From positions 1-10,655 of the forward strand of contig JAUYDO010000164.1 in the NCBI GenBank assembly GCA_030691835.1: a stretch of 10,655 nucleotides of DNA. Direction: 5' to 3'. This stretch comes from Dehalococcoidia bacterium (GTDB lineage Bacteria > Chloroflexota > Dehalococcoidia > Dehalococcoidales > UBA3254). The notes under the pieces are model-generated. The model did no database searches. It worked only from the letters and a program-made list of their open reading frames with translations, and was not told the origin of the DNA. This document shows, piece after piece, positions 697-10,655 of this stretch. Within the stretch, counting starts at the first letter, position 1. Each line of letters begins with the position of its first letter. The position numbers were made by a program, and so were the translations under genes.

Positions 697-1227
697 ATGA
701 ATCCTACGCCTACATACATCAAGTCGCTTTTAACCCCCGCCACCAAACAGCCACTGGGTCGTAAGGTATGGTCAATTGACCTGGTGGCGGTATGGCTTCC
801 ATTCTTTATAGCTACCAATGCGATGCAAGACACGGCTATCCCGTCCGATGCGCTCGGTTGTCCGTTAAGGCTCGGATACGACAAGGCTGGTGCGGTACGC
901 TTCACACAAGCGGGTCGCCCCGTTATCAGGGTCGCAAAGGAATTGAGCGACTCTGTGCGTCTTGTCCGTGACAACTTCACAGCCAATCTTATCAACTACG
1001 CTGGTGAAGTGATGCGGGACAATACAGAGGCGTACAAGGCGCAAGTCTCAAGCGCACAAAAAGCGGGTATGCCGATATACCAGCACGACCTTGCCGAATT
1101 GGACAAGGCTGTCAAAGCCAAAGCGGAAGCGATAGCCAAAGCGGAAGCGGTAGCGGTAGCCAAAGCCAAAGCGGAAGCGGTAGCGGAAGCCGAAACGATA
1201 ACCGAACGGGAAGCGGTAGCCGTCTAA
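697..1227 (+). CDS. Unknown protein with Ala/Glu/Lys repeat tail
   Basis: A 176-residue protein that I do not recognise. Residues 1-115 look like an ordinary soluble domain, including the stretch VRLVRDNFTANLINYAGEVM, which is probably helical. From about residue 139 to the end it is a low-complexity AKAEA/AVAEA region, which would form one long charged helix or coiled coil, ending TEREAVAV. The start is preceded by GTGAGG inside the loop of leader hairpin 3, so expression is probably controlled at translation. The gene lies between 28-bp inverted repeats (638-665 and 1241-1268), which makes it the cargo of a possible mobile or invertible unit or of a long RNA stem. The repeat tail also leaves a long open frame on the opposite strand (1048-1254, rich in Phe, Tyr, Arg and Gly), which is probably a by-product. 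Confidence 0.7.
   Translation: MNPTPTYIKSLLTPATKQPLGRKVWSIDLVAVWLPFFIATNAMQDTAIPSDALGCPLRLGYDKAGAVRFTQAGRPVIRVAKELSDSVRLVRDNFTANLINYAGEVMRDNTEAYKAQVSSAQKAGMPIYQHDLAELDKAVKAKAEAIAKAEAVAVAKAKAEAVAEAETITEREAVAV
1114..1221 (+). repeat. Degenerate hexamer repeat inside the gene
   Basis: The 3' end of the 176-residue gene is built from six-base units such as GCGGAA, GCGGTA and GCCAAA, encoding Ala-Glu, Ala-Val and Ala-Lys pairs. The period stays in frame throughout. Such tracts expand and contract by slippage, so length differences between related copies would be expected. Confidence 0.7.
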
Positions 1228-1240
1228 AGTCACACAAGGG

Positions 1241-1268
1241 CGTAACACCCACACTCTACGGCTTAACT
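1241..1268 (-). repeat. 28-bp inverted repeat, right arm
   Basis: From CGTAACACCC to GGCTTAACT this is the reverse complement of 638-665, differing at one position (C for the expected G at 1256). It lies after the stop of the 176-residue gene and 17 nt before the next ATG (1286). A transcript covering both arms could form a near-perfect 28-bp duplex closing a loop of about 575 nt. Confidence 0.85.
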
Positions 1269-1285
1269 AAAAGAGAGGGTAAGTT

Positions 1286-1810
1286 ATGACGAAACCGAAA
1301 TGGGCAACTTCAGAGCGTCAAACCTACCTTGTCAAGCTATTCATACGTTCAAGTGGCTTTTGCGTGTTTGGGGAAGCTAATTGCACGATTCCAGAGCATC
1401 ACTATGAGATTGCCATTGAACGGCTAATTGACGATTGGCAAGCGGAAGATAGAGAACAAGCCAACCTAGATTGGCAAGCGGAACGGAAAGTCTTGCACTC
1501 ACTAGGCGAACGTAAAACGCCGTTGCGTGGTAGATTCTCAAATATCAGTCAGGATATATGGCACGACCAGCAACCGCTATTTTACGTTGAGAATCTAGGA
1601 ATGAACGGTATAACGCTAAAGCCGTTCGCTAAAGTCAAGCTGTCATCAAGCTATATGCGCCTGTATGTGGACTTGGGCGATTGCTTACGGAATGTGAGTA
1701 AAAATAAAAGACGCAAGGCTATCCGATACGGCAAGCCACTTCCGAAGTCCGTTGACAATAGAATAGCTGATAAGGTCTGGCAAGCGGTCAAGCATTATCT
1801 AAACTACTAA
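1286..1810 (+). CDS. Unknown 174-residue protein
   Basis: The gene starts at an ATG with AGAGAGGG upstream and ends at TAA next to a strong terminator, so it is a complete unit. I do not recognise the family. Near residues 26-40 it has Cys-x6-Cys followed by His-His (GFCVFGEANC then IPEHH), which could hold a metal. This is followed by a charged helical segment with a repeated DWQAE/DWQAER motif (about 50-68). The C-terminal third is basic (SKNKRRKAIRYGKPLPKSV), which would suit nucleic-acid binding. It follows the inverted-repeat unit and has similar AT-leaning composition to the genes around it. A DNA-binding or accessory role is a guess only. Confidence 0.7.
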   Translation: MTKPKWATSERQTYLVKLFIRSSGFCVFGEANCTIPEHHYEIAIERLIDDWQAEDREQANLDWQAERKVLHSLGERKTPLRGRFSNISQDIWHDQQPLFYVENLGMNGITLKPFAKVKLSSSYMRLYVDLGDCLRNVSKNKRRKAIRYGKPLPKSVDNRIADKVWQAVKHYLNY

Positions 1811-2566: not shown

Positions 2567-2752
2567 GTGGCAAGAAAATTCATTGTCGATGGAACAGAGT
2601 ACCCGGATCCCGGACCTGATGTGACCCCTGAACAGTTCAAGCAGATGATGGCCGGCTTTTTACCCGAGCTGTCTAACGCCGATATGACCCAGGAGAAACA
2701 GGGCGAGGACACCATCTATCGTTTCAAACGGCGCGTCGGAACAAAAGGATGA
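2567..2752 (+). CDS. PRTRC system protein C, ubiquitin-like
   Basis: A 61-residue protein from a GTG start with an ideal AAAGGAGGTG site 4 nt upstream; the longer reading from 2441 lacks a ribosome binding site and is not supported. It matches my memory of the PRTRC protein C family (Prok_Ub type beta-grasp fold): a first strand RKFIVDG, then YPDPGPDVTPEQFKQMMAGF with the conserved Pro-Asp-Pro and helix, a PELSNADM segment, and a last strand TIYRFKRRVGTKG. The C-terminus Val-Gly-Thr-Lys-Gly is the family signature. A terminal Gly is what an E1-type enzyme would adenylate, and ThiF, E2-like and JAMM partners lie in the same operon. Its ATGA overlap with the HNH frame shows translational coupling. 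The target of conjugation, if any, is unknown. Confidence 0.87.
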   Translation: MARKFIVDGTEYPDPGPDVTPEQFKQMMAGFLPELSNADMTQEKQGEDTIYRFKRRVGTKG

Positions 2753-3240
2753 AGAAGGGACCCCAAGCACGGCTACCGGAAGATAGGTTCTGGGCAAAGG
2801 TCGATAAGAACGGACCTATCGTTATACCTGAGCTAGTGCCATGCTGGATGTAGAAGGGAGCCCATCAGAAACTGGGGTACGGCAATTTCTTTATTGGAAG
2901 TCACACATTTGTCTCGGCTCACAAGTTTGCCTATGAGACACTTGTCGGTCCTGTCCCGGAAGGCAAGGAGCTTGACCATCTCTGCCGTAATCCTCCTTGT
3001 GTTAATCCTGCTCACCTTGAACCGGTGACCCATCAGGAAAATGACATAAGGGGGATAGCTGGAACTGTAAGTGCACAACGGCTGAGGTCTATAACGCATT
3101 GCCCGCAAGGCCATCCCTATGATTTATTCAATACCTACATTCATCCGAAAACTGGAGCAAGGATGTGTAGAATTTGTAGGTCTCTCAGAAAGAGTGCTGA
3201 AACGCTGAAGAAAAAGAAGGGTATTCCACATGCAGACTAA
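2749..3240 (+). pseudogene. HNH endonuclease with in-frame TAG
   Basis: Read through one stop, this 163-residue frame is a typical phage or plasmid HNH endonuclease. The N-terminus RFWAKVDKNG leads to a CWM-stop-KGAHQ segment, then YGNFFIGSHTFVSAHKFAYE, the catalytic core LDHLCRNPPCVNPAHLEPVT (about 68-91), and a C-terminal HCPQGHPYD with CRIC, a zinc-binding finish. The TAG at 2851-2853 stands where related proteins carry Trp (Cys-Trp-x-Trp), so one TGG-to-TAG change explains it. A restart at GTG 3025 would miss the catalytic DH. The enzyme is therefore probably inactive unless the stop is suppressed. It overlaps the protein C gene by ATGA, as an intact operon member would. Confidence 0.8.
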
Positions 3241-3271
3241 GAATCAAAACATCGACAGGAAGAGGTGACGT

Positions 3272-3589
3272 ATGGCCAGAAGAATCATTGCACAGTGTAA
3301 TACTGTCGACTTCAATGATATCGCGCACCTTGTAGACCTTGTAAGTAATGGCGGTGCCGTCTTCCAGGATAACCTCAACAGCCGACAAAAAGCGACAATC
3401 AGAGTGGTCTATCATTTTGAGCAATGCGGTGTCCCTTTCAAAGTACTCTTGAAACTCCGCGAGGTTCTCGTCTGGGAAATGCCGGACAAGGGGTTAGCTT
3501 TCGAGTACAAGCTGTTGGACCCGAGAGATAGCGCAACCTGGCATATTCTGAGGACGATGCAACCAAGAAAGGTGAACTCGCGTGGATGA
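3272..3589 (+). CDS. Unknown 105-residue operon protein
   Basis: The ATG is preceded by GAAGAGGTGA at good spacing. The protein begins MARRIIAQCNTVDFNDIAHL and looks like a compact mixed alpha/beta domain, including VVYHFEQCGVPFKVLLKLRE. There are no signal peptide, membrane segments or known motifs. Its end overlaps the next start (GTG at 3582) by 8 bp, so the two are probably co-translated. It lies between the HNH frame and the likely protein F gene, and I know of no counterpart in standard PRTRC cassettes. Function unknown. Confidence 0.65.
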   Translation: MARRIIAQCNTVDFNDIAHLVDLVSNGGAVFQDNLNSRQKATIRVVYHFEQCGVPFKVLLKLREVLVWEMPDKGLAFEYKLLDPRDSATWHILRTMQPRKVNSRG

Positions 3590-3824
3590 AGCAGAGAATA
3601 TCGAGAGGGTAGTTACAGCTCTCCTGAAGGTGCCGGAAAAGAAACTGCGCATCATAGAACTCGTGAATGAGATACCTATCAAGTATGGTGAGCTGGATTA
3701 TACCGAACTGGCAAAACGGCAGCTCGATGTAACCCTTGCCATTGCCGAGGCTAAATCCTACGGCACTCATACCATAATGGCAGTTGATTCGCTAATCAGG
3801 TTGAGAGCCAGGGAGGAGGCGTAG
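3582..3824 (+). CDS. Unknown 80-residue helical protein
   Basis: The GTG start overlaps the preceding gene and has AAAGGTGA about 7 nt upstream. The product, VDEAENIERVVTALLKVPEK and onward, is predicted mostly helical, with no cysteines and no recognisable motif. Its TAG stop abuts the ATG of the next gene directly, so translation is tightly coupled to the likely protein F. That arrangement suggests the two products may act together, but no function can be read from the sequence. Confidence 0.65.
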   Translation: MDEAENIERVVTALLKVPEKKLRIIELVNEIPIKYGELDYTELAKRQLDVTLAIAEAKSYGTHTIMAVDSLIRLRAREEA

Positions 3825-4808
3825 ATGTGGGATTTGGAACAGATCATCGAGCAGAATAACCAAGCCGCCCTGGATTACATGATGAGAGGCCTTCAGGTCG
3901 AGGAGGCACAGTCGCCGCAACCTGAGGCATGGGCGCTATCCTTGCTGGCCGACATACTCAAGGTGGGCCCACCTCTTCTGTCAGAAATCATCGAGTGTCT
4001 TCAACACATCGATAATCAGAAGGAATTCTTAAGCCTGGTCAGAATGTTATTACCGGAACACGAGACAGAGATCATGGCGGAAACCAAAAGACGGCGGGTG
4101 TATAAGTTTTGTTTCTACTTTGGCAAGAAATACTATCGGCTTCCAGCTAATACCGAATGCTCGACAAGCGATTGGATAGCAGGTATGCCGGTAGAGCTGT
4201 TAGCTATGTCCTATTCATCCTACCACGAGCTGGATATGCGCCCGGGCTACCTCTTGTTGCTGTCGCTCGTAATATATCCTTACGAAGGCGACGAAAGGGA
4301 TTTGGAAGAAGACGAATTAGGCGACATTCCTGATGGCGCCAGAGTACCTCTTCTTGACCTGGTACAGAATATGGTCGGCGCCGAGCTGGTTAATCGGATA
4401 CCAGCGGAGGGCTGGGACCCCGTTGAATTACACCGGATGACAGACAAGACACCTTATGACGGAGTCGGTGACTTCGCCGATTGGGTATGCTCTCAGACAG
4501 AGTGTGTCATGTTGGATGCCAGCTACGAGAATTGCGACTACCAGGAAGGCGTCGGCGAGCCTATCTTTCGATGGACAAAGCGTAATGTCGCTATCTTGAC
4601 CGAGCAATGGCCGAAAGTCAAGCGAATTCGCAGGAAAATAGACCACATTGTTGAATGGCTTGAGGCAGACCAGATAAACCACTTCGCGGAGCTCCTGGAG
4701 TTTTTATTGAAATCCCAGCCGGCGAAAACCAAGAAAAGGAAATACCTCTATGACCCCATGGAGCATATCTGTCAACTAGACCAGGATTCTGGAGAGGAGG
4801 GACGATGA
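3825..4808 (+). CDS. Probable PRTRC system protein F
   Basis: A 327-residue soluble protein with GGGAGGAGG upstream of its ATG. It matches what I remember of PRTRC protein F in length and general plan: a helical N-terminus (ALSLLADILKVGPPLLSEII), a central domain with TPYDGVGDFADWV (about 208-220), and a C-terminal helical bundle ending in W-x(n)-RRKIDHIVEWLEADQ (about 268-283), where the WLEAD motif is the most family-like part. It overlaps the protein B start by ATGA, as expected for the cassette. It has an acidic loop (DERDLEEDELGD, about 154-165). There is no catalytic motif, and its role in the system is unknown. The family call rests on partial motif memory and position, so it is less certain than proteins A, B, C and ThiF. 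Confidence 0.6.
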   Translation: MWDLEQIIEQNNQAALDYMMRGLQVEEAQSPQPEAWALSLLADILKVGPPLLSEIIECLQHIDNQKEFLSLVRMLLPEHETEIMAETKRRRVYKFCFYFGKKYYRLPANTECSTSDWIAGMPVELLAMSYSSYHELDMRPGYLLLLSLVIYPYEGDERDLEEDELGDIPDGARVPLLDLVQNMVGAELVNRIPAEGWDPVELHRMTDKTPYDGVGDFADWVCSQTECVMLDASYENCDYQEGVGEPIFRWTKRNVAILTEQWPKVKRIRRKIDHIVEWLEADQINHFAELLEFLLKSQPAKTKKRKYLYDPMEHICQLDQDSGEEGR

Positions 4809-5497
4809 CAACGAATAAGGCACCCGCTTTCACCTGGGCAGTTCCAAAAGAGTTAGGCATACCTGCCGACCCTCTCAGATTACGTCTCGACTTTTTTCAC
4901 CAGAGTACCACTCTCATATATTTTCAGGGGGATACGGTTACCACCAAGCAGGTCGACGCGATGGATGTAGCCCATGCCCTGGCTAGTGACCTGTCTTTCG
5001 GCACCGGGTTGTTACCGCCCAACACTCTCTGGTGGCAAAATACCAGGGGCGGTCCGGTGTTCGCACTGTATGTCGAGCCGAAAATCCGGAAGTTGGCTCT
5101 GCAGGAGAGTATCAAGAAGCCTCCCCGCCGGTTCACTATCCCGCTTCCCGGGCTCATCTTTCTCTGCACACCAGGTCAACCGCCATGGGTGATAGCCTGT
5201 AAGAAAAAACCGACGAAAGAGAGTGACCTAGTATTTCATGCTCCACTTTGTAATATTTTCAGAAACGGAAGGTCATGCCCTGGCTCTCACACGTACCCAA
5301 CTCGCATTGTAGATATAGTACAGTCATTCTTTGTATCGTTCTTCAGTGCAACCGCGGACCTGCAGAACAGGTCACAGAAGTTCCCGAAGAACGTAATTGA
5401 CCTGTGGAAATATCTAGATGGGAAGTCCAAATTTCCTAACGACGATTTAAATGAGTTTGGGACGGTTGCCGATTTAATGAACATGGGAAAGTCGTGA
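4805..5497 (+). CDS. PRTRC system protein B, E2-like
   Basis: A 230-residue protein of the PRTRC B family, classed with prokaryotic E2-like folds (Prok-E2_D). Family marks in order are the N-terminal strand pair TTLIYFQGDTVTTKQV, LPPNTLWWQNTRGGPVFALY (about 70-89), the core strand IPLPGLIFLCTPG (112-124), then DLVFHAPLCNIFRNG with SCPGS (about 141-161), and IVQSFFVSFFSA (171-182). Cys158 in SCPGS lies in the most conserved segment and is the natural candidate for thioester formation; Cys149 is nearby. Whether the family forms a thioester with protein C has, as far as I know, not been shown. It overlaps its upstream neighbour by ATGA and its downstream neighbour by GTGA, so it is co-translated within the cassette. 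Confidence 0.87.
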   Translation: MTTNKAPAFTWAVPKELGIPADPLRLRLDFFHQSTTLIYFQGDTVTTKQVDAMDVAHALASDLSFGTGLLPPNTLWWQNTRGGPVFALYVEPKIRKLALQESIKKPPRRFTIPLPGLIFLCTPGQPPWVIACKKKPTKESDLVFHAPLCNIFRNGRSCPGSHTYPTRIVDIVQSFFVSFFSATADLQNRSQKFPKNVIDLWKYLDGKSKFPNDDLNEFGTVADLMNMGKS

Positions 5498-5697
5498 AGA
5501 TTCAAGACCGAATAAAAGCCCTGCCGAATATTAAAGATGCCTACTGGGACTGGAAACAAAACAGACTGGTTGTTTATTACACTGGTGAACTTTTCAGAAC
5601 ACGAGTATTGGTGGCAGGGGCGATTGGTGATGCTGGACTTCAACGAGCAGTAGACACCATCACTTTTATTCAACAAAGCAATGAGGAGGTGATGTGA
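5494..5697 (+). CDS. Unknown 67-residue protein between B and ThiF
   Basis: It starts at a GTG overlapping the stop of protein B (GTGA) and ends in GAGGAGGTGATGTGA, so it also carries the ribosome binding site for the next gene. The product runs from an N-terminal helix (IQDRIKALPNI) to a strand pair (DAYWDWKQNRLVVYYTGE) and a C-terminal helix (LQRAVDTITFIQQ), a layout reminiscent of small ferredoxin-like alpha/beta folds. There are no cysteines and no terminal Gly, so it is not an obvious second ubiquitin-like protein. I know no standard PRTRC member like it. Its position between E2-like and E1-like genes suggests a partner or adaptor role, which is inference only. Confidence 0.65.
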   Translation: MKIQDRIKALPNIKDAYWDWKQNRLVVYYTGELFRTRVLVAGAIGDAGLQRAVDTITFIQQSNEEVM

Positions 5698-5746
5698 GAC
5701 GGCAACTTATACTGTTTCGTTAGGAGAAAACACTGGCAAATACAAA

Positions 5747-6550
5747 TTGGTCGTAGTTGGCTGCGGTGGTACCGGTTCACTGGTTAGCGAAGGGCTTTGT
5801 AGACTTCTAATAGGTAGTGATTTAACTCTGATGTTGGTAGATCCCGATCGGGTCGAACCTCACAACCTGCGCCGCCAGGCTTTCTTCGAAGGGGATATCG
5901 GCAGGTTCAAAGCTCAAGTGCTTGCCGAGCGCCTAGCCAGGCAGTACGGGCGTCAGATAGGCTACAGCGTATTGCCTTATGACAAAGCTATGTTCGATGA
6001 GGAAATGGGCGGCGGGATGCGTTCTAGGGCATTATCGCTAATCATTGTGGCCTGCGTCGACAACACATTTGCCAGGAGAAGTATTGCTGACAGTATTGGT
6101 GGCAGTTGGGAGAGCAAATGGTGGGTAGACGCCGGCAATGGCTTTGCATCGGGCCAGGTGTTGCTCGGTAATGCCAAGGACAAGGAAAGTCTAAAAGAGG
6201 GATTTAACAAGGCTGACCGTACTGTTGTACGGTTACCGATGCCCTCTCTCCAGCTCCCGGCGCTTCTAATACCGACGGTCAAGTCGGAGCGGCCGCGGGA
6301 CTGCGCCGAAGCGGTAGAGGACGACGACCAAAGCCCTACAATTAACCAAGCGATGGCAACACTGGTCTTAGACTGCATATATCGTCTTCTAAGGGGTACG
6401 TTGACGACCATGGGCGCGTACATAGACCTTGACGCCGGGACTCTTCAGACAGTGCCGGCTTCACCCGCGACGGTCGCCAGAATGTTTGGGATGAAAGTTA
6501 ATGAACTAATGACCAATAAATGCGCTCTGGGGGCGAGGTACCACGTATGA
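5747..6550 (+). CDS. PRTRC system ThiF-family E1-like protein
   Basis: An E1/ThiF-type adenylating enzyme that would activate the C-terminus of protein C with ATP. From the TTG start shown, the nucleotide loop VVVGCGGTGS lies at 2-11, the acidic and Asn/Arg motif VDPDRVEPHNLRRQ at 31-44, Lys55 and Asp105 follow in the usual spacing, and WWVDAGNG at 125-132. The C-terminal RDCAEAVEDDDQSPTINQA (184-202) is a PRTRC ThiF hallmark, with Cys186 a candidate thioester residue. The start is doubtful: the frame is open from 5693 (reading ETATYTVSLGENTGKYK), but no ATG or GTG lies in it. The good AGGAGG site (5684-5689) points to an ACG at 5699 or to a one-base deletion within ATGTGAG. It overlaps protein A by ATGA. 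Confidence 0.87.
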   Translation: MVVVGCGGTGSLVSEGLCRLLIGSDLTLMLVDPDRVEPHNLRRQAFFEGDIGRFKAQVLAERLARQYGRQIGYSVLPYDKAMFDEEMGGGMRSRALSLIIVACVDNTFARRSIADSIGGSWESKWWVDAGNGFASGQVLLGNAKDKESLKEGFNKADRTVVRLPMPSLQLPALLIPTVKSERPRDCAEAVEDDDQSPTINQAMATLVLDCIYRLLRGTLTTMGAYIDLDAGTLQTVPASPATVARMFGMKVNELMTNKCALGARYHV

Positions 6551-7098
6551 CCAAGCCAGTAGGGTACTTAATCAACACGCCGGCCGGTCTGCAGGGGGAA
6601 GCTGGAGTATTTTATGACTATATCATGGCTGCCGGTGGATTGTATCTGCGGGCAAAGAACGCACACCTGGCAGCTACCGTGTGTATCGCGCCCCAACTGG
6701 TCAGAGGGCTGGCGCCGCTGGAGGAATCTATTCAACTGATTCATGGGAAGATACCCACGGAGCTGCTCTCCCTGGCGCTGTCGGTACTAATCATAAAGCC
6801 GGATATCGAGCAGTACCTGGCGGTCATATGGAAAGATGGCTACACCATTAAGATACCGCCACAGGAGCAAACTCCGGCATCAGTCACCTATGAAGTCTTG
6901 CCAGATACGGTGCTAGATATCCACAGCCATGTTGACCCGGTGCCGCCCCAGTTCACTGGTATCGACAACCATGATGAGCAGGGGTTCGGTATTTATTGTG
7001 TCGTTGGGGATTTAAGGAATCTGTTCCCTACGGTCACCTTGCGTCTTGGGGTATATGGCTACTTCATGGAAATAGATAAAAGTGAGGTCTTCGCATGA
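6547..7098 (+). CDS. PRTRC system protein A, JAMM peptidase-like
   Basis: A 183-residue member of the PRTRC A (Prok-JAB) family; JAMM domains are zinc isopeptidases that remove ubiquitin-like tags. The ATG at 6547 overlaps the ThiF stop and has GCGAGG upstream, so it is preferred to the ATG at 6520. Metal-binding residues are His126 and His128 in DIHSHVD and Asp140 in FTGIDNHDE, followed by the family-typical GFGIYCVVGDL and LRLGVYGYF. Two deviations stand out. Eleven rather than ten residues separate His128 and Asp140, and the usual Ser of the motif is Thr137. The candidate upstream Glu is not clear. The last gene base pairs overlap the next start by ATGA. Confidence 0.87.
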   Translation: MTKPVGYLINTPAGLQGEAGVFYDYIMAAGGLYLRAKNAHLAATVCIAPQLVRGLAPLEESIQLIHGKIPTELLSLALSVLIIKPDIEQYLAVIWKDGYTIKIPPQEQTPASVTYEVLPDTVLDIHSHVDPVPPQFTGIDNHDEQGFGIYCVVGDLRNLFPTVTLRLGVYGYFMEIDKSEVFA

Positions 7099-7304
7099 AA
7101 AGCGCAGAGGAACATGAACAGCGAGAATACGAGCGACGGAAGATCGTTGAGAAGGCAGTTGAAGCCGCTGATAGGATAATTCTGGACGGGAGTGATGGGA
7201 CGGTGGAGGAGACAAATTGGCTAACGGCAGAGGTTGCTAGGAAATTCAACGAGAAAGTTAACCATGCCTTCCAGACAGCACTGCTCAAGAAGGATTTAGA
7301 ATAG
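7095..7304 (+). CDS. Unknown 69-residue helical protein
   Basis: It starts at an ATG overlapping the stop of protein A (ATGA) and ends at TAG. The product, MKSAEEHEQREYERRKIVEK and onward, is highly charged and predicted as helical hairpins, with a short Gly/Asp turn (ILDGSDGT, 29-36). No motif is recognised. It is the last tightly overlapping gene of the cassette; after it there is a 29-nt gap with a fresh strong ribosome binding site. Confidence 0.6.
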   Translation: MKSAEEHEQREYERRKIVEKAVEAADRIILDGSDGTVEETNWLTAEVARKFNEKVNHAFQTALLKKDLE

Positions 7305-7333: not shown

Positions 7334-7630
7334 ATGCCACGGGAAGAGCTAAAGGTAAACATTATCATCAGGGGAGACAAAATCTTCCTGGGAGCTCAGG
7401 CGACCGACTGCGACCCGAAGATGACCACACTGACGGGTAATCTCCAGAACGCGCTCGAGCTAATCCCCAACTTCATCGAGCAGGCGAACCGAGAGTGGGA
7501 CGTATCGGCACGCAATCCCAAGGTGCCAGAACCGGTAGTAGCAGCGCCAGCACCGCGAGTAGCGACGACGTCCGCGAGCAAACCGGCTGCCGCCGCAAAG
7601 CCCGCTCCAGCACAGCCAAAATTCTTTTAA
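7334..7630 (+). CDS. 98-residue protein with QPKFF tail; possible PRTRC E counterpart
   Basis: The ATG follows AAAAAGGAGGTG at ideal spacing. Residues 1-57 form a small domain (KVNIIIRGDKIFLGAQATDC, then LQNALELIPNFIEQANREWD). From about residue 64 the protein is a flexible Pro/Ala/Lys-rich linker, ending in the pentapeptide Gln-Pro-Lys-Phe-Phe. A disordered linker with a Q-x-x-aromatic-Phe terminus is how many bacterial proteins bind the sliding clamp, and a clamp gene is the next gene downstream. PRTRC protein E also has a small N-terminal domain and a low-complexity tail, so it could be an E counterpart, but similarity is too weak to assert. The DNA of the tail is GC-rich. Confidence 0.7.
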   Translation: MPREELKVNIIIRGDKIFLGAQATDCDPKMTTLTGNLQNALELIPNFIEQANREWDVSARNPKVPEPVVAAPAPRVATTSASKPAAAAKPAPAQPKFF

Positions 7631-7956: not shown

Positions 7957-9219
7957 ATGAACATACAAGTAACCAAGCTCAGAGAAGTGATGGAGCTGCT
8001 CAAGCCGGCAGTTCCCAAGAAGTCTACGCTAAAGGTTACGGCCTACATCAGACTCGGCGAGGGGAAGGCGATAGCAACGGACCTTGAATCGATGGTCATA
8101 GCAGACCTACCCGAAGCCACGGAGGCGATGTTGCTGCCCTTCGTCCAGATCGCCGAGATGCTCAAGTATGTGCCCGGCAATGAGGTGCTCAAAGTCGAGG
8201 CAGAGGGCAAAATGCTGAAGCTCTCATGGCCAGACGGCAACGCAAGTTACCCGACAGAGTCCGTCGCGGATTTTCCCGTACTACCCGATATGCCGGTTAA
8301 AGCCGAGGGTCTGGTTGATGGCGACACCCTGATGCCCGCATTGGAGGCTGCCCTAGCTTACGCAGCCACCGACACCGCCCGCCCTGTGCTCAGCGGAGTA
8401 ACCCTGGTATTAGGCAATCCCATCGAGGTTGCATCCGGAGACGGCTTCAGGATGTCCCACCAGGTGCTGGGGCTTTCCTTCCCACTTGAGGTAAAAATCA
8501 TCATACCGGCACATGCTGTGGCAATCCTGGAACACGTCTTTGCCAAGACACCGCGGACGCCTCCCTCGACTGCCGACTCCCTGATCAAGGTGATCACCGC
8601 CAAGCGGCAACTCCACATGGCTCTCTTCGGCGACAACAAGGTCAGGCTGGACTTCGGCACGAGCGCATCCGTCGTCGTCAATCTAATCGCTGGCGAGCCG
8701 CCGGCATGGCTTCAGCTCATCCCTAAAGGCGAGCCAGTGCTGCAGAGCCAGGTCTTCGCTCCGCAACTGGAAGCGGCTGCCAAGCGGGTCCGCACCATTG
8801 CCAAGGACGGCAGCGGTATTGTCCGCCTGGAGTTTGCTGGCGGCAAGCTGAAGGTATCCGCCAAAGGAGACGACCAGGAAATCAGTGCCACCATGGACGC
8901 ACTGAATACCCAAGGCGAACCGGGTAGGACCGCTCTCGACCAGAAATACCTTATCGGCTACCTCTCCGGCAAACAGGGCATCGTCATCTTCTCCAAGTAC
9001 ACCGACATCGGCCCTGTAGTCTTCCAGTACCAGAATTCGCCGCGAGTCCTGATCATGCCGATGGCTGTACAGTGGGGGGACGAAACCCCGCCAGCCGCGG
9101 CAACAGTAGAACCGACCGCGGAAACAACCGCAGAAACACCGGAAGTTGAGCCAGGTGAAGAAACCGAACCCGTGGAAGAAGAAAATACCGGCGAGGAGGA
9201 ACCGGTAACCACCGAGTAA
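7957..9219 (+). CDS. DNA polymerase III beta sliding clamp homologue
   Basis: A 420-residue DnaN-like ring clamp, which would encircle DNA and tether polymerases and other proteins. The ATG at 7957 has AAAGGAGGTG at ideal spacing, and the upstream TTG at 7933 is not needed. Three clamp domains can be read: I (about 1-112, with MNIQVTKLREVMELLKPAVP and ATDLESMVIADLP), II (about 113-255, with the signature ARPVLSGVTL, then ASGDGFRMS and IIIPAHAV), and III (about 256-368, with FAPQLEAAAKRV, GIVRLEFAGGKLKVSA and the closing PVVFQYQNSPRVLIMPM). Residues 370-420 are an added acidic Glu/Thr/Pro tail absent from ordinary DnaN. The gene is visibly more GC-rich than the left of the window. Two neighbours end in QPKFF and QPSFF, which resemble clamp-binding peptides. 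An element-borne clamp implies some replication or repair autonomy. Confidence 0.88.
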   Translation: MNIQVTKLREVMELLKPAVPKKSTLKVTAYIRLGEGKAIATDLESMVIADLPEATEAMLLPFVQIAEMLKYVPGNEVLKVEAEGKMLKLSWPDGNASYPTESVADFPVLPDMPVKAEGLVDGDTLMPALEAALAYAATDTARPVLSGVTLVLGNPIEVASGDGFRMSHQVLGLSFPLEVKIIIPAHAVAILEHVFAKTPRTPPSTADSLIKVITAKRQLHMALFGDNKVRLDFGTSASVVVNLIAGEPPAWLQLIPKGEPVLQSQVFAPQLEAAAKRVRTIAKDGSGIVRLEFAGGKLKVSAKGDDQEISATMDALNTQGEPGRTALDQKYLIGYLSGKQGIVIFSKYTDIGPVVFQYQNSPRVLIMPMAVQWGDETPPAAATVEPTAETTAETPEVEPGEETEPVEEENTGEEEPVTTE

Positions 9220-9308: not shown

Positions 9309-9578
9309 ATGAAAGAGGTTGTCGTAAAACAGGCAGAAATCGAGGTGAATGGCAACAAGTTTACCGTCACCCGCATACCCACGGCCACATCCGGGAGCTG
9401 GTTCACGATCCATGACGCCTTCGAGATATGGGGAGCAGTGGCCATCGATGACTTCTCCGGAGAAATAGACGGCTGGCGTAATCCACCCGATAAGTGCCGA
9501 GCAGAGATTGAAAATGCCATCAAGAAGGCATTTGACATCCCGGAGAATGAGGTGACAGATGACCACCAAACAGGATGA
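9309..9578 (+). CDS. Unknown 89-residue protein
   Basis: The ATG follows AAAAGGAGGCTC. The product reads as a small beta-rich domain: two strands (VVVKQAEIEVNGNKFTVTRI), then WFTIHDAF and a Trp/Gly/Asp-rich part (IWGAVAIDDFSGEIDGWRNP), and a C-terminal helix (AEIENAIKKAFDI). No catalytic motif is recognised. Its end overlaps the next gene by 20 bp, and the GAGGTGAC within it serves as that gene's ribosome binding site, so the two are co-translated. Function unknown. Confidence 0.7.
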   Translation: MKEVVVKQAEIEVNGNKFTVTRIPTATSGSWFTIHDAFEIWGAVAIDDFSGEIDGWRNPPDKCRAEIENAIKKAFDIPENEVTDDHQTG

Positions 9579-10065
9579 TAAATGGATCGGCGAGCTGGTT
9601 GGAGCTCTCTGTGACCCGATAATCGTTTATCCCTCCGGTTGGGAGGATACCTTACCTGACTGGATCAAGTCCCAGATTCACCTGGAGCGGCTAATTATGA
9701 ACGCCAAGGTGATGAAGGAAGGGGGTGTGCCGGTCGGTGACACGGAAGCTCTGGCCTATATGTACCCGCGAACGATGGAAGCACCGATGAGCGAACAGTG
9801 GTTCCGCATTTATATGTACGTCTTCACCCAAGCCATGAAATTCAAGAAGACGGAAGTGCCGGAGGACCTCAGGAGCGAGACCCTAACAGATTACGATATG
9901 AGGCAGCTGGACGACTTGAAGCGGTGGATCTACCAGAAGCGAGTACAGCACCGCAAGGAAAAGGCCCGCGACGAGCGGCGCCAGGCGGCTGAGGAAGCAG
10001 AGACAAAAGAGGCATCCGGGGCAAAGGAACTGGAAACCAAGCCAGTCCAGCCCTCATTCTTCTAG
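9559..10065 (+). CDS. Unknown 168-residue protein with QPSFF tail
   Basis: The ATG at 9559 overlaps the previous gene and has GAGGTGAC at good spacing. The N-terminal two thirds form a helical domain with several aromatics (PSGWEDTLPDWIKSQIHLER, YMYPRTMEAPMSEQWFRIYM). Residues about 120-160 are a long charged helix and linker (HRKEKARDERRQAAEEAETK), and the protein ends Gln-Pro-Ser-Phe-Phe. The last five residues match the QPKFF end of the 98-residue protein before the clamp gene, and both are reached through a flexible linker. I do not recognise the main domain; clamp docking of the tail is an inference from the motif and neighbourhood. Confidence 0.7.
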   Translation: MTTKQDDKWIGELVGALCDPIIVYPSGWEDTLPDWIKSQIHLERLIMNAKVMKEGGVPVGDTEALAYMYPRTMEAPMSEQWFRIYMYVFTQAMKFKKTEVPEDLRSETLTDYDMRQLDDLKRWIYQKRVQHRKEKARDERRQAAEEAETKEASGAKELETKPVQPSFF

Positions 10066-10125: not shown

Positions 10126-10655
10126 ATGGAGACAAAATATCTAAGCTGTGCTGAAACAGCAAAGTTTGTACGAGCTGCCTTGAAAAAGAAATTCCCTGGA
10201 GTGAAGTTTTCTGTGCGGTCCAGTGTTTACAGCGGGGGAGCTTCGATCGATGTGTCCTGGGTTCTTGGCCCTACTACCAGGGAAGTCGACACTGTCGCCG
10301 GTCAATTTGAATCAGCCGACTTCGATGGGAGTATAGACATGGAGACTCGTTACGACCACTGGTTGTTGCCCGATGGTTCCACGATCGTCAAACATGGTCC
10401 CGGCACTGAGGGTTCTATGGGTTATATTCCAGCCGTGTCAAATCCAATGCCCCCCGGCTCTATTCCGGTATCATTTGGCGCTCACTACGTACAATGCCAG
10501 CGCCGGTACGCCGACCAATGGGAGGGCGAAACAACCCTGATAAACCAGGTCGCCGCTGACATGTGTAAGCTTCAAGGGGTCGCGTGGAATGGTCCAAACC
10601 TGACAACAGGGCTATTTGGTTCCGGCGACACGGAACAAGTCAGTCAACATGCCTG
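10126..10655 (+). CDS. LPD29-like domain protein, truncated by window end
   Basis: It starts at an ATG with AATAGGAGG upstream and is open through the right edge, so only the first 176 residues are seen. The N-terminus, YLSCAETAKFVRAALKKKFP followed by GVKFSVRSSVYSGGASIDVS and WVLGPTTREV, matches what I know of the large polyvalent protein-associated domain 29: a helix with Ala-Lys, then a KFSVRS strand, an SGGAS turn and a W-x-GPT motif. Later it has VQCQRRYADQWEGE. Such domains occur in plasmid and phage proteins with unknown roles, sometimes as parts of very large proteins. Residues after about 70 are less clear. Its presence supports a mobile-element origin. Confidence 0.75.
   Translation, partial: METKYLSCAETAKFVRAALKKKFPGVKFSVRSSVYSGGASIDVSWVLGPTTREVDTVAGQFESADFDGSIDMETRYDHWLLPDGSTIVKHGPGTEGSMGYIPAVSNPMPPGSIPVSFGAHYVQCQRRYADQWEGETTLINQVAADMCKLQGVAWNGPNLTTGLFGSGDTEQVSQHA

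Follow-up and report, generated by a model that had tools for sequence, protein, structure and literature searches.

PRTRC gene sets (TIGR03735/36/37/38; Prok_Ub, Prok-E2_D) are among the closest described comparisons for the locus analysed here, and no function is reported for them in the literature searched. Related ThiF proteins are found on 386 plasmid records, and many of the matches listed, though not necessarily all of them, are annotated as PRTRC; the laboratory strain Leptolyngbya boryana dg5 has a ThiF whose plasmid coordinates coincide with those of L088. The window, that is, the whole stretch of 10,655 nucleotides under analysis, resembles these sets in that C, B, A and ThiF lie in a single operon, with a GTKG end on C and catalytic residues in place. 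There are also differences: all four proteins fall under the NCBIfam cut-offs, E and F are not recognised by model, no ParB is recognised in the window, the order is ThiF-A, and g80, g98 and DnaN are present in addition (Table 1).

A further comparison is offered by the fourth operon type in a 2006 Genome Biology survey, whose Table 1, row 6d (PMC1779556), gives a ubiquitin-like protein with a C-terminal Gly, an alpha-helical protein, an E2-like protein with a Cys, a JAB protein and an E1. The window shares this make-up; its corresponding features include the Prok_Ub protein C ending in GTKG, the Prok-E2_D protein B with its Cys, and a JAB protein next to the E1. A difference is that section 14 of that survey, in describing this type, mentions neither g80 nor a clamp nor a clamp-binding tail.

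Table 1. Genes and frames of the window, numbered from its first letter
Feature	Description	Position	Strand	Basis or remark
C	Ubiquitin-like modifier, 61 aa, C-terminal VGTKG	2567..2752	+	GTG start, ends RRVGTKG
HNH frame	HNH_3 endonuclease frame, one in-frame TAG at 2851-2853	2749..3240	+	HNH_3 5.3e-12, piece after stop
g105	105-aa gene	3272..3589	+	Family of 2 members
g80	Small recurrent PRTRC-type component, 80 aa	3582..3824	+	g80 model
F-position protein	327 aa	3825..4808	+	Family in Chloroflexota, viral contigs, cyanobacterial plasmids
B	E2-like, catalytic-type Cys (NGRSCPG) and Asn	4805..5497	+	Prok-E2_D 6.4e-17
g67	67-aa gene between B and ThiF	5494..5697	+	Self-match only
ThiF	E1-like adenylyltransferase	5699..6550	+	Pfam ThiF 7.1e-17; TIGR03736 1.5e-35
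A	JAMM/JAB-like protease, HSH...T..D	6547..7098	+	TIGR03735 5.5e-9
g69	69-aa gene	7095..7304	+	Self-match only
g98	E-like, 98 aa, small domain, Ala/Pro linker, tail AQPKFF	7334..7630	+	Clamp-binding-like tail
DnaN	Element-type beta sliding clamp, acidic C-terminal extension	7957..9219	+	phrog_947 7e-45; PDB clamps 8.5e-15
g168	Second clamp-tail candidate, tail VQPSFF	9559..10065	+	Strict motif 4/7
LPD29 protein	LPD29-domain protein, cut by contig end	10126..10655	+	PF18847 8.2e-22

The conjugation cassette and its operon

The cassette at 2567..7098 is a real PRTRC-type set of ubiquitin-like, E1, E2 and JAMM proteins, carried on a bacterial mobile element. C (2.5e-12 to Prok_Ub) and B score above the Pfam gathering thresholds, and A has no match to Pfam JAB. 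With the NCBIfam models, C reaches 43.2 bits against PRTRC_C TIGR03738 (cut-off 45.95), B 57.9 bits against PRTRC_B (131.45), ThiF 122.7 bits against PRTRC_ThiF TIGR03736 (144.75), and A 35.9 bits, E 5.5e-9, against PRTRC_A TIGR03735 (101.8). Because all four matches are significant yet lie under the curated cut-offs, the locus is classed, on sequence grounds, as a divergent form of the PRTRC type. Alignment of relatives shows the E2 Cys and Asn each in 48/48 B proteins and the JAMM HxH, Ser/Thr and Asp each in 40/40 A proteins (what remained of 56 B and 54 A matches after a length filter, a few duplicates included), and the E1 Cys201 is invariant among 36 aligned ThiF sequences. These B and A counts, and those given below for the C ends, the g98 tails and DnaN near g98, exclude the short loci L001-L021 and L104-L120, the weak matches L058-L067 and the duplicates L122, L125, L128, L131 and L135.

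From g80 through g69, neighbouring genes overlap or abut, all on the + strand, and the operon continues past 7098 with g69, g98 and dnaN. Annotated proteobacterial cassettes have the order A-ThiF, and the ThiF-A order of the window recurs in L023 and L024. These results bear out much of a previous sequence-only reading, which had named a ubiquitin-like protein ending in VGTKG, an E2-like B, an E1-like ThiF and a JAMM protein A in one overlapping operon: the proteins match models, their catalytic residues are conserved and the overlaps are there. Its assignment to PRTRC holds in part, with significant matches for A, B, C and ThiF, all under the cut-offs, and none for the E and F models. Of the extra genes it named, g80 is a recurrent component. 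The two genes it had placed between C and F are present, g80 being matched by its model in 39 loci and g105 being common to L028, where its homologue immediately precedes C. The 67-residue gene between B and ThiF is likewise present. The HNH frame between C and F does match HNH_3, but it carries an in-frame TAG and is a probable insertion.

g80 is a separate gene in the window, and some relatives have it in frame behind the GTKG of C. A similar-sized gene or extension follows C in cyanobacterial loci, though the g80 model gives 0/18 matches there, which leaves kinship with g80 unsupported. The 327-residue protein has no match to NCBIfam PRTRC_F and is taken as the predicted F from its place in the operon and from its family, members of which also occur on cyanobacterial plasmids; in the family clustering, L079's canonical F matched nothing but itself. 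Fused ORFs let the C, g80 and F families merge in this clustering, and it was repeated with trimmed seeds. Neither g67 nor g69 has relatives among the loci clustered.

The end of C reads [GA]xKG in 62/63 relatives and GQNG in one, in a tally whose inclusion rule itself required such an end; L124 (GTRG) and L075 (GTKG, fused, weak score) lie outside it, and L080 entered as ARKG although GTKG comes after. Following the conserved end, there are no further residues in 16 of these 63 loci, 1-20 in 24 and more than 20 in 23.

The ThiF frame has no ATG, GTG or TTG at the start site of its relatives, which mostly begin MxYTVSL (among 60 listed). An ACG is found at 5699, with the Shine-Dalgarno-like GAGGAGGT eight bases upstream, and the earliest ordinary start is TTG 5747, just upstream of the GCGGTGS loop; translation probably begins at the ACG or, alternatively, at this TTG. 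The HNH frame is probably a mobile insertion and lies outside the cassette core. L035 has an HNH frame without a stop at the identical C/g80 junction, and L024 has no HNH frame. A core role for HNH was rejected, as only the window and L035 among three family members have it at the junction, L069 having it elsewhere (counted in the first set of clustered loci, with later-fetched loci outside the scan). Reassignment of TAG was ruled out because TAG ends g80, g69 and g168.

Clamp-binding-like tails and the adjoining clamp gene

QLxLF at protein C-termini is given as the beta-clamp-binding consensus in PMC4549789. The tail of g98 resembles the tails described in that source in forming the very end of the protein, behind a low-complexity linker and beside a clamp gene, and differs in that its binding is predicted and that it sits in a ubiquitin-like operon. 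It is a candidate clamp-binding peptide: the window sequence, QPKFF, departs from QLxLF and fits just the loose Qxx[LMF][FL] pattern. Tails of the clamp-binding type, namely QLSLF, QISLF and QLTLF, occur in relatives at g98 or directly upstream of C, with QLSLF exact in L031, L032, L126, L136, L098 and L159; among cyanobacterial E-position proteins, those of Planktothrix end in QLSLF and those of Nostoc in QISLF. g98 itself lies directly upstream of C, in the E position, in L031, L032, L036, L126 and L136.

Across 37 loci, g98 ends in the strict pentapeptide in 15, in the pentapeptide or hexapeptide form in 23, and in neither in 14. The same scan gave 0/45 for C, 0/25 for g80, 0/63 for A, 0/19 for DnaN, 1/73 for B, 1/64 for F and 3/79 for ThiF, against a strict background of 29/1136 that still includes motif-bearing E-position proteins of cyanobacteria, as none of the models covered them. 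The 120 g98 homologues listed, which are SAR202-like, keep the Gln in only 38 cases, and 76 end in ETLRLF. g168 provides a second candidate, with tails in its relatives reading QPTFF, QPKMF, QFKMF, QPSFF and QMSMF.

E-position proteins on cyanobacterial plasmids carry the motif in 12/13 testable loci and 5/6 sequence clusters, as compared with 2/88 other CDS. These 13 loci were fetched after the hypothesis had been formed, 11 being named beforehand and L158 and L159 added later; the six earliest cyanobacterial or viral tails (4/6 strict) shaped the hypothesis and are excluded from the 12/13. The strict motif is missing in L095, L082 and L076, L102 is out of the test as its C spans the record start, and no E position is assignable in L161-L163. 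g98 and these proteins are weakly homologous (hhalign E 3.3e-4, probability 38). The clamp motif occurs in 0/27 canonical (PF19556-type) PRTRC E proteins and likewise not in L086, L087 and L160; neither g98 nor the E-position proteins of cyanobacteria show detectable homology to the 27. Identity of g98 with canonical PRTRC E was rejected on sequence grounds (hhalign probability 0.3 against the 27), position and architecture alone agreeing, and 22 g98 proteins match no E model of either Pfam or NCBIfam.

The window DnaN is by sequence a bacterial beta sliding clamp, with 28% identity to the host's own DnaN and a LIMPM sequence (MPM motif) towards its C-terminus; its Pfam domains score slightly under the gathering thresholds, and the N-terminal domain has no match. 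An LPD29-domain protein is likewise found downstream of DnaN in L028. Of the testable non-SAR202 loci with g98, 15/19 have DnaN, L032, L034, L070 and L136 having g98 with no DnaN found; flanks are too short in L022 and L041, and the DnaN match in L037 is doubtful, being the same ORF as F. No DnaN lies near g98 in 16 SAR202-type loci. In the reverse test, PRTRC genes lie beside 12/13 clamps of the window's type, the window counted. Furthermore, related cassettes of three further phyla have clamp or clamp-loader genes next to them. Linked genes of this kind are dnaN and dnaX in L102 and L158, a DnaN-like gene and holA in L088, and dnaN in L162 and L163; of the 20 loci fetched from cyanobacteria, three (L088, L102, L158) show a clamp gene.

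It should also be noted that shared transcription alone might account for replication genes being linked on plasmids.

Where the sequence-only reading had left the target unknown, a clamp-tail protein and a sliding clamp lie just beyond the span it described. A clamp-binding-like tail on one cassette protein, together with two-way linkage to dnaN, turns the matter of the target into a concrete, testable question.

Proposed mechanism and rival explanations

Building on the observed genes, catalytic residues, tails and gene linkage, we see about an even chance that the locus encodes a divergent PRTRC-type conjugation cascade tethered to a sliding clamp, with clamp binding, conjugation and target as we infer them. 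In this scheme, C would be a precursor-type modifier with its GTKG end exposed, trimmed by the JAMM protein A wherever a tail or further domain follows. ThiF would adenylate C and pass it to the E2-like Cys of B, C would be attached to target proteins at their lysines, and A would later take it off. Because of its C-terminal clamp-binding peptide, g98, and probably g168 too, may bring machinery or substrate to DnaN on the replicating element DNA. Likely targets would be DnaN or the replication and repair proteins bound to it, and the neighbouring genes suggest that the cascade acts on this clamp, the part that keeps the replication machinery on DNA.

An ordinary PRTRC cassette serving plasmid partition or maintenance, beside which clamp genes lie as fellow core genes of large elements, is how genome annotators see the set, and would be in keeping with the ParB-family gene of the canonical cassette and with the listing of PRTRC among partition or plasmid-core genes in PMC7466150, PMC3826726 and PMC4465626. 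We consider this unlikely, given that the clamp link is reciprocal and the clamp tails sit on one particular cassette gene; no ParB is recognised within the 10.7 kb between the two contig ends. A CBASS Cap2-, Bil- or Bub-like system, regulated and tagging invading proteins in defence against phages or in conflict between elements, appears less likely still. The E1 is similar to those of CBASS and Bub, the distribution is patchy (Prok_Ub in 16/393 genomes of the class) and CBASS-like genes adjoin L103, but in the window the cassette has replication genes, and no effectors, next to it, and a PADLOC scan of 10 window proteins matched ThiF alone, 25 of the 27 matches listed being to generic E1-E2 models.

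The window copy might instead be decaying or mis-assembled, and thus inactive while its relatives function, as the missing ThiF start codon, the broken HNH frame and the draft state of the source genome (61% complete) would allow. This, too, is quite improbable: the remaining frames are open and keep their catalytic residues, GAGGAGGT precedes the ACG, and HNH is not a core part. Least probable is a sulfur-carrier pathway of the ThiS/MoaD/Urm1 type, which would yield a C-terminal thiocarboxylate and no isopeptide; it accords with the ThiF family and the C-terminal Gly, but the operon also encodes a JAMM protease and the E2-like B, whose Cys and Asn are invariant, and no sulfur-metabolism gene is recognised among the window's genes.

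A viral origin was also considered and set aside: a single-protein scan gave no viral relative and the alignment scan 10 loci, and most of the named relatives with the top scores carry a Chloroflexota label.

Comparison with other ubiquitin-like systems

CBASS Cap2/Cap3, Bil and Bub share the E1/E2/JAB logic, and the window ThiF matches PDB entries for Cap2 and BubCD. Unlike in those systems, the E1 and E2 here are separate single-domain proteins that come with their own ubiquitin-like C, in a replication-gene neighbourhood with no recognised effector.

In eukaryotes, PCNA is modified by ubiquitination and SUMOylation. The likeness here would be one of working principle, a ubiquitin-like modifier at a sliding clamp; the clamp of the window is bacterial and a putative target, and no evolutionary link is claimed. 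The clamp-tail link would supply PRTRC-class systems with their first testable role. If the proposal is true, the bacterial sliding clamp would be under ubiquitin-like control, which suggests that mobile elements manage their own replisomes by protein tagging. Overall, it is possible, though we hold it as doubtful, that PRTRC-type cassettes are working counterparts of PCNA modification, in which a ubiquitin-like protein, with a clamp-binding E-position protein as guide, is placed reversibly on the sliding clamp of large mobile elements or on replication proteins bound to that clamp, and so controls replication or excludes host factors.

Cassette identity and catalytic residues

The window, 10,655 nt long, comprises one entire contig (C257) from a draft genome of 1.5 Mb that is 61% complete. 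On its + strand the genes run in the order C, HNH frame, g105, g80, F-position gene (327-aa protein), B, g67, ThiF, A, g69, g98, dnaN, g89, g168 and lastly an LPD29 gene cut by the contig end, the g-numbers giving protein lengths in residues. The sequence-only reading of this set as Ub-like C, E2-like B, E1-like ThiF and JAMM protein A is borne out by profile searches, in which all four match PRTRC models of NCBIfam (E 5.5e-9 to 1.5e-35, far beyond chance), though each stays below its curated cut-off; the Pfam thresholds are cleared for Prok_Ub, Prok-E2_D and ThiF. Metagenomes hold 1556 relatives of this ThiF at E <= 0.001, and a number of the best 120 of these 1556 carry the JGI label PRTRC. 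The best-scoring named relatives are labelled mainly Chloroflexota, often Dehalococcoidia.

The catalytic residues are well conserved. The Cys and upstream Asn of B are kept in 48/48 aligned relatives and the HxH, Ser/Thr and Asp of A each in 40/40, these alignments consisting of ORFs of plausible length from 56 and 54 matches, respectively, with a few duplicates included. Among 36 aligned ThiF sequences, the GxGGTG loop is nearly invariant and the DCA cysteine invariant. Given the known E2 and JAMM families, the conserved residues of B, A and ThiF together support conjugation and removal over sulfur transfer. A working Ub-like conjugation chemistry is considered very probable for the cassette family. 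That the window copy is itself functional is less sure, because its ThiF frame has no ordinary start where relatives begin; the ACG found there is possibly a non-standard start, a mutation or an assembly error.

Coordinates of features in the window and in related loci (L-numbers) fetched for comparison
Feature	Locus	Coordinates	Observation
Gene pair u176 and u174	window	697-1810	u176 with Ala/Glu/Lys repeat tail; relatives 5' of cassette in L025; look-alike pairs (by eye) in L133, L151, L157; no convincing Pfam match
HNH_3 homing-type endonuclease frame	window	2749-3240	coupled to C stop codon (ATGA); one internal TAG
ACG in ThiF frame	window	5699-5701	at relatives' ATG site, eight bases 3' of GAGGAGGT
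g98	window	7334-7630	
DnaN	window	7957-9219	
g168	window	9559-10065	tail QPSFF; relatives QPTFF, QPKMF, QFKMF, QMSMF
LPD29 (large polyvalent protein associated) domain gene	window	10126-10655	beside dnaN; likewise in L028
Helicase-like protein near cassette	L029	16765-19038	ends GQLALFGT
C, g80-like stretch and F	L031	3455-4747	read as single 431-aa open frame
Helicase-like protein near cassette	L032	12827-15946	ends GQLALFSS
Helicase-like protein beside cassette	L039		802 aa
CBASS-like CD-NTase and SAVED genes	L103	7865-11062	directly beside cyanobacterial PRTRC-type cassette
Alphaproteobacterial PRTRC E	L160	2601-3032	ends SDQPASLW; strict pattern failed
Rad52, dnaN, then E2-D, JAB, ThiF	L163	1033-6795	Bacillota plasmid; PRTRC-like cassette outside usual phyla

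Ends of C, g80 and the HNH frame

Across 63 loci, C stops exactly at its conserved end in 16, runs 1-20 residues further in 24 and more than 20 further in 23, where some of the long extensions do not resemble g80 and the short tails of SAR202 type come from loci closely related to one another. Such a pattern would be expected of a ubiquitin-like precursor, for which JAMM protein A would be the obvious maturation protease.

Two of the genes earlier regarded as extras fare differently. With model matches in 39 loci, g80 is a recurrent component; it is a separate gene in most and lies in one frame behind the GTKG of C in L033, L036, L123 and L126 (by rule) and in L029, L031, L032 and L136 (by eye). 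Its model matched 0/18 cyanobacterial loci; in cyanobacteria a similar-sized gene or an extension of C occupies its place. The HNH frame looks like an insertion, since L035 has a stop-free HNH frame at the same C/g80 junction and in L024 C and g80 nearly abut with no HNH between them.

Candidate clamp-binding tails at the E position

In the protein g98, a short domain is followed by a linker rich in Ala and Pro and then by the tail QPKFF. Its relatives are encoded between the cassette and dnaN or else immediately 5' of C, which is the place of protein E in annotated cassettes. Other tails in the family include QPSFF, QASFF, QPTFF, QLTLFG, QLALFD and the exact QLSLFG. The beta-clamp peptide consensus is given in PMC4549789 as C-terminal QLxLF, from which the window's own tail departs. 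The pentapeptide in its strict form (Qxx[LMF][FL] within the last 12 residues) is found in 15/37 g98 loci, or 23/37 with the hexapeptide form allowed, and in 5/368 members of seven other families (ThiF 3/79, B 1/73, F 1/64, A 0/63, C 0/45, g80 0/25, DnaN 0/19). SAR202-like tails mostly have Glu in place of Gln, the hexapeptide Gln being kept in 38/120 of the matches listed. Profile searches of F and g98 against solved structures gave nothing convincing. The strict pattern also occurs in 4/7 members of the g168 family; g168 itself, which has no convincing Pfam match, is a candidate for a second clamp-binding protein of these elements.

The hypothesis came from the first six cyanobacterial/viral E-position tails (4/6 strict), and the prediction was recorded before twelve further plasmid loci were fetched. 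Ten of the 11 testable loci match strictly, against a background of 2/88 other CDS from seven of the twelve, and two later cyanobacterial plasmids have the E-position tails NQLTLF and NQLSLF. Combined, 12/13 loci versus 2/88 gives a Fisher p of 1e-12; with similar bodies merged, 5/6 clusters versus 2/88 gives 2e-6. The E-position bodies differ widely and the tail persists, in 9/11 clusters over all 19; g98 and the cyanobacterial family may have a domain in common (hhalign E 3.3e-4, probability 38). The tail finds no support in four plasmids of other phyla: the Sphingobium E fails, and the E position is not assignable in Deinococcus, Rubrobacter and Cytobacillus. Canonical PRTRC E proteins of the founding group match in 0/27, and their tails (DLASLL, NLFA, ALWD) may or may not be clamp peptides; that of the alphaproteobacterial E in L160 is possibly a degenerate one. 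The E-like tail is predicted, with fair probability, to bind a sliding clamp.

Linkage to dnaN and relation to known systems

DnaN is encoded <=5 kb from ThiF on the same strand in 19/79 loci (18 without the doubtful L037). Among loci with g98, it is present in 15/19 non-SAR202 loci with enough flank and in 0/16 of SAR202 type, a type assigned by tail and record titles. A reverse search with the window DnaN (E <= 1e-30) located 13 places in 9/156 genomes of its order, and PRTRC genes adjoin 12/13 of these window-type clamp places, the window itself included. The element DnaN is 28% identical to the host's own.

In other phyla, Chroococcidiopsis and Sphaerospermopsis have dnaN and dnaX 3' of the cassette, and the one in Leptolyngbya boryana has a DnaN-like gene and holA around it. 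Cytobacillus carries dnaN close to an E2/JAB/E1 cassette; in Rubrobacter, dnaN is close to a JAB/E1 pair for which no E2 was recognised. Of the 20 cyanobacterial loci retrieved, with flanks mostly of 6-9 kb on each side, only 3 showed a clamp gene; the others would depend on the clamp of the host.

The sequence-only reading had left the target of the cassette open, and the clue from the g98 tail and dnaN lies outside the interval it covered. The clamp or clamp-bound proteins are proposed here as possible targets, though at clearly less than even odds. The reading as given, a divergent PRTRC-type Ub-like conjugation cascade tethered to the DnaN sliding clamp via an E-like tail, with its target clause read loosely, stands at about even chances. 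Counting against it are the canonical E proteins, the Glu of most SAR202-like tails listed, the non-consensus QPKFF of the window and the small number of clamp genes near cyanobacterial cassettes.

No report of a clamp link for PRTRC-type systems was found among the matches listed in literature searches, where coverage of subscription papers and preprints was limited, so this absence is unproven. PRTRC genes are listed among plasmid or partition genes in PMC7466150, PMC3826726 and PMC4465626, and the same kind of gene set appears as the fourth operon type of a 2006 survey (PMC1779556).
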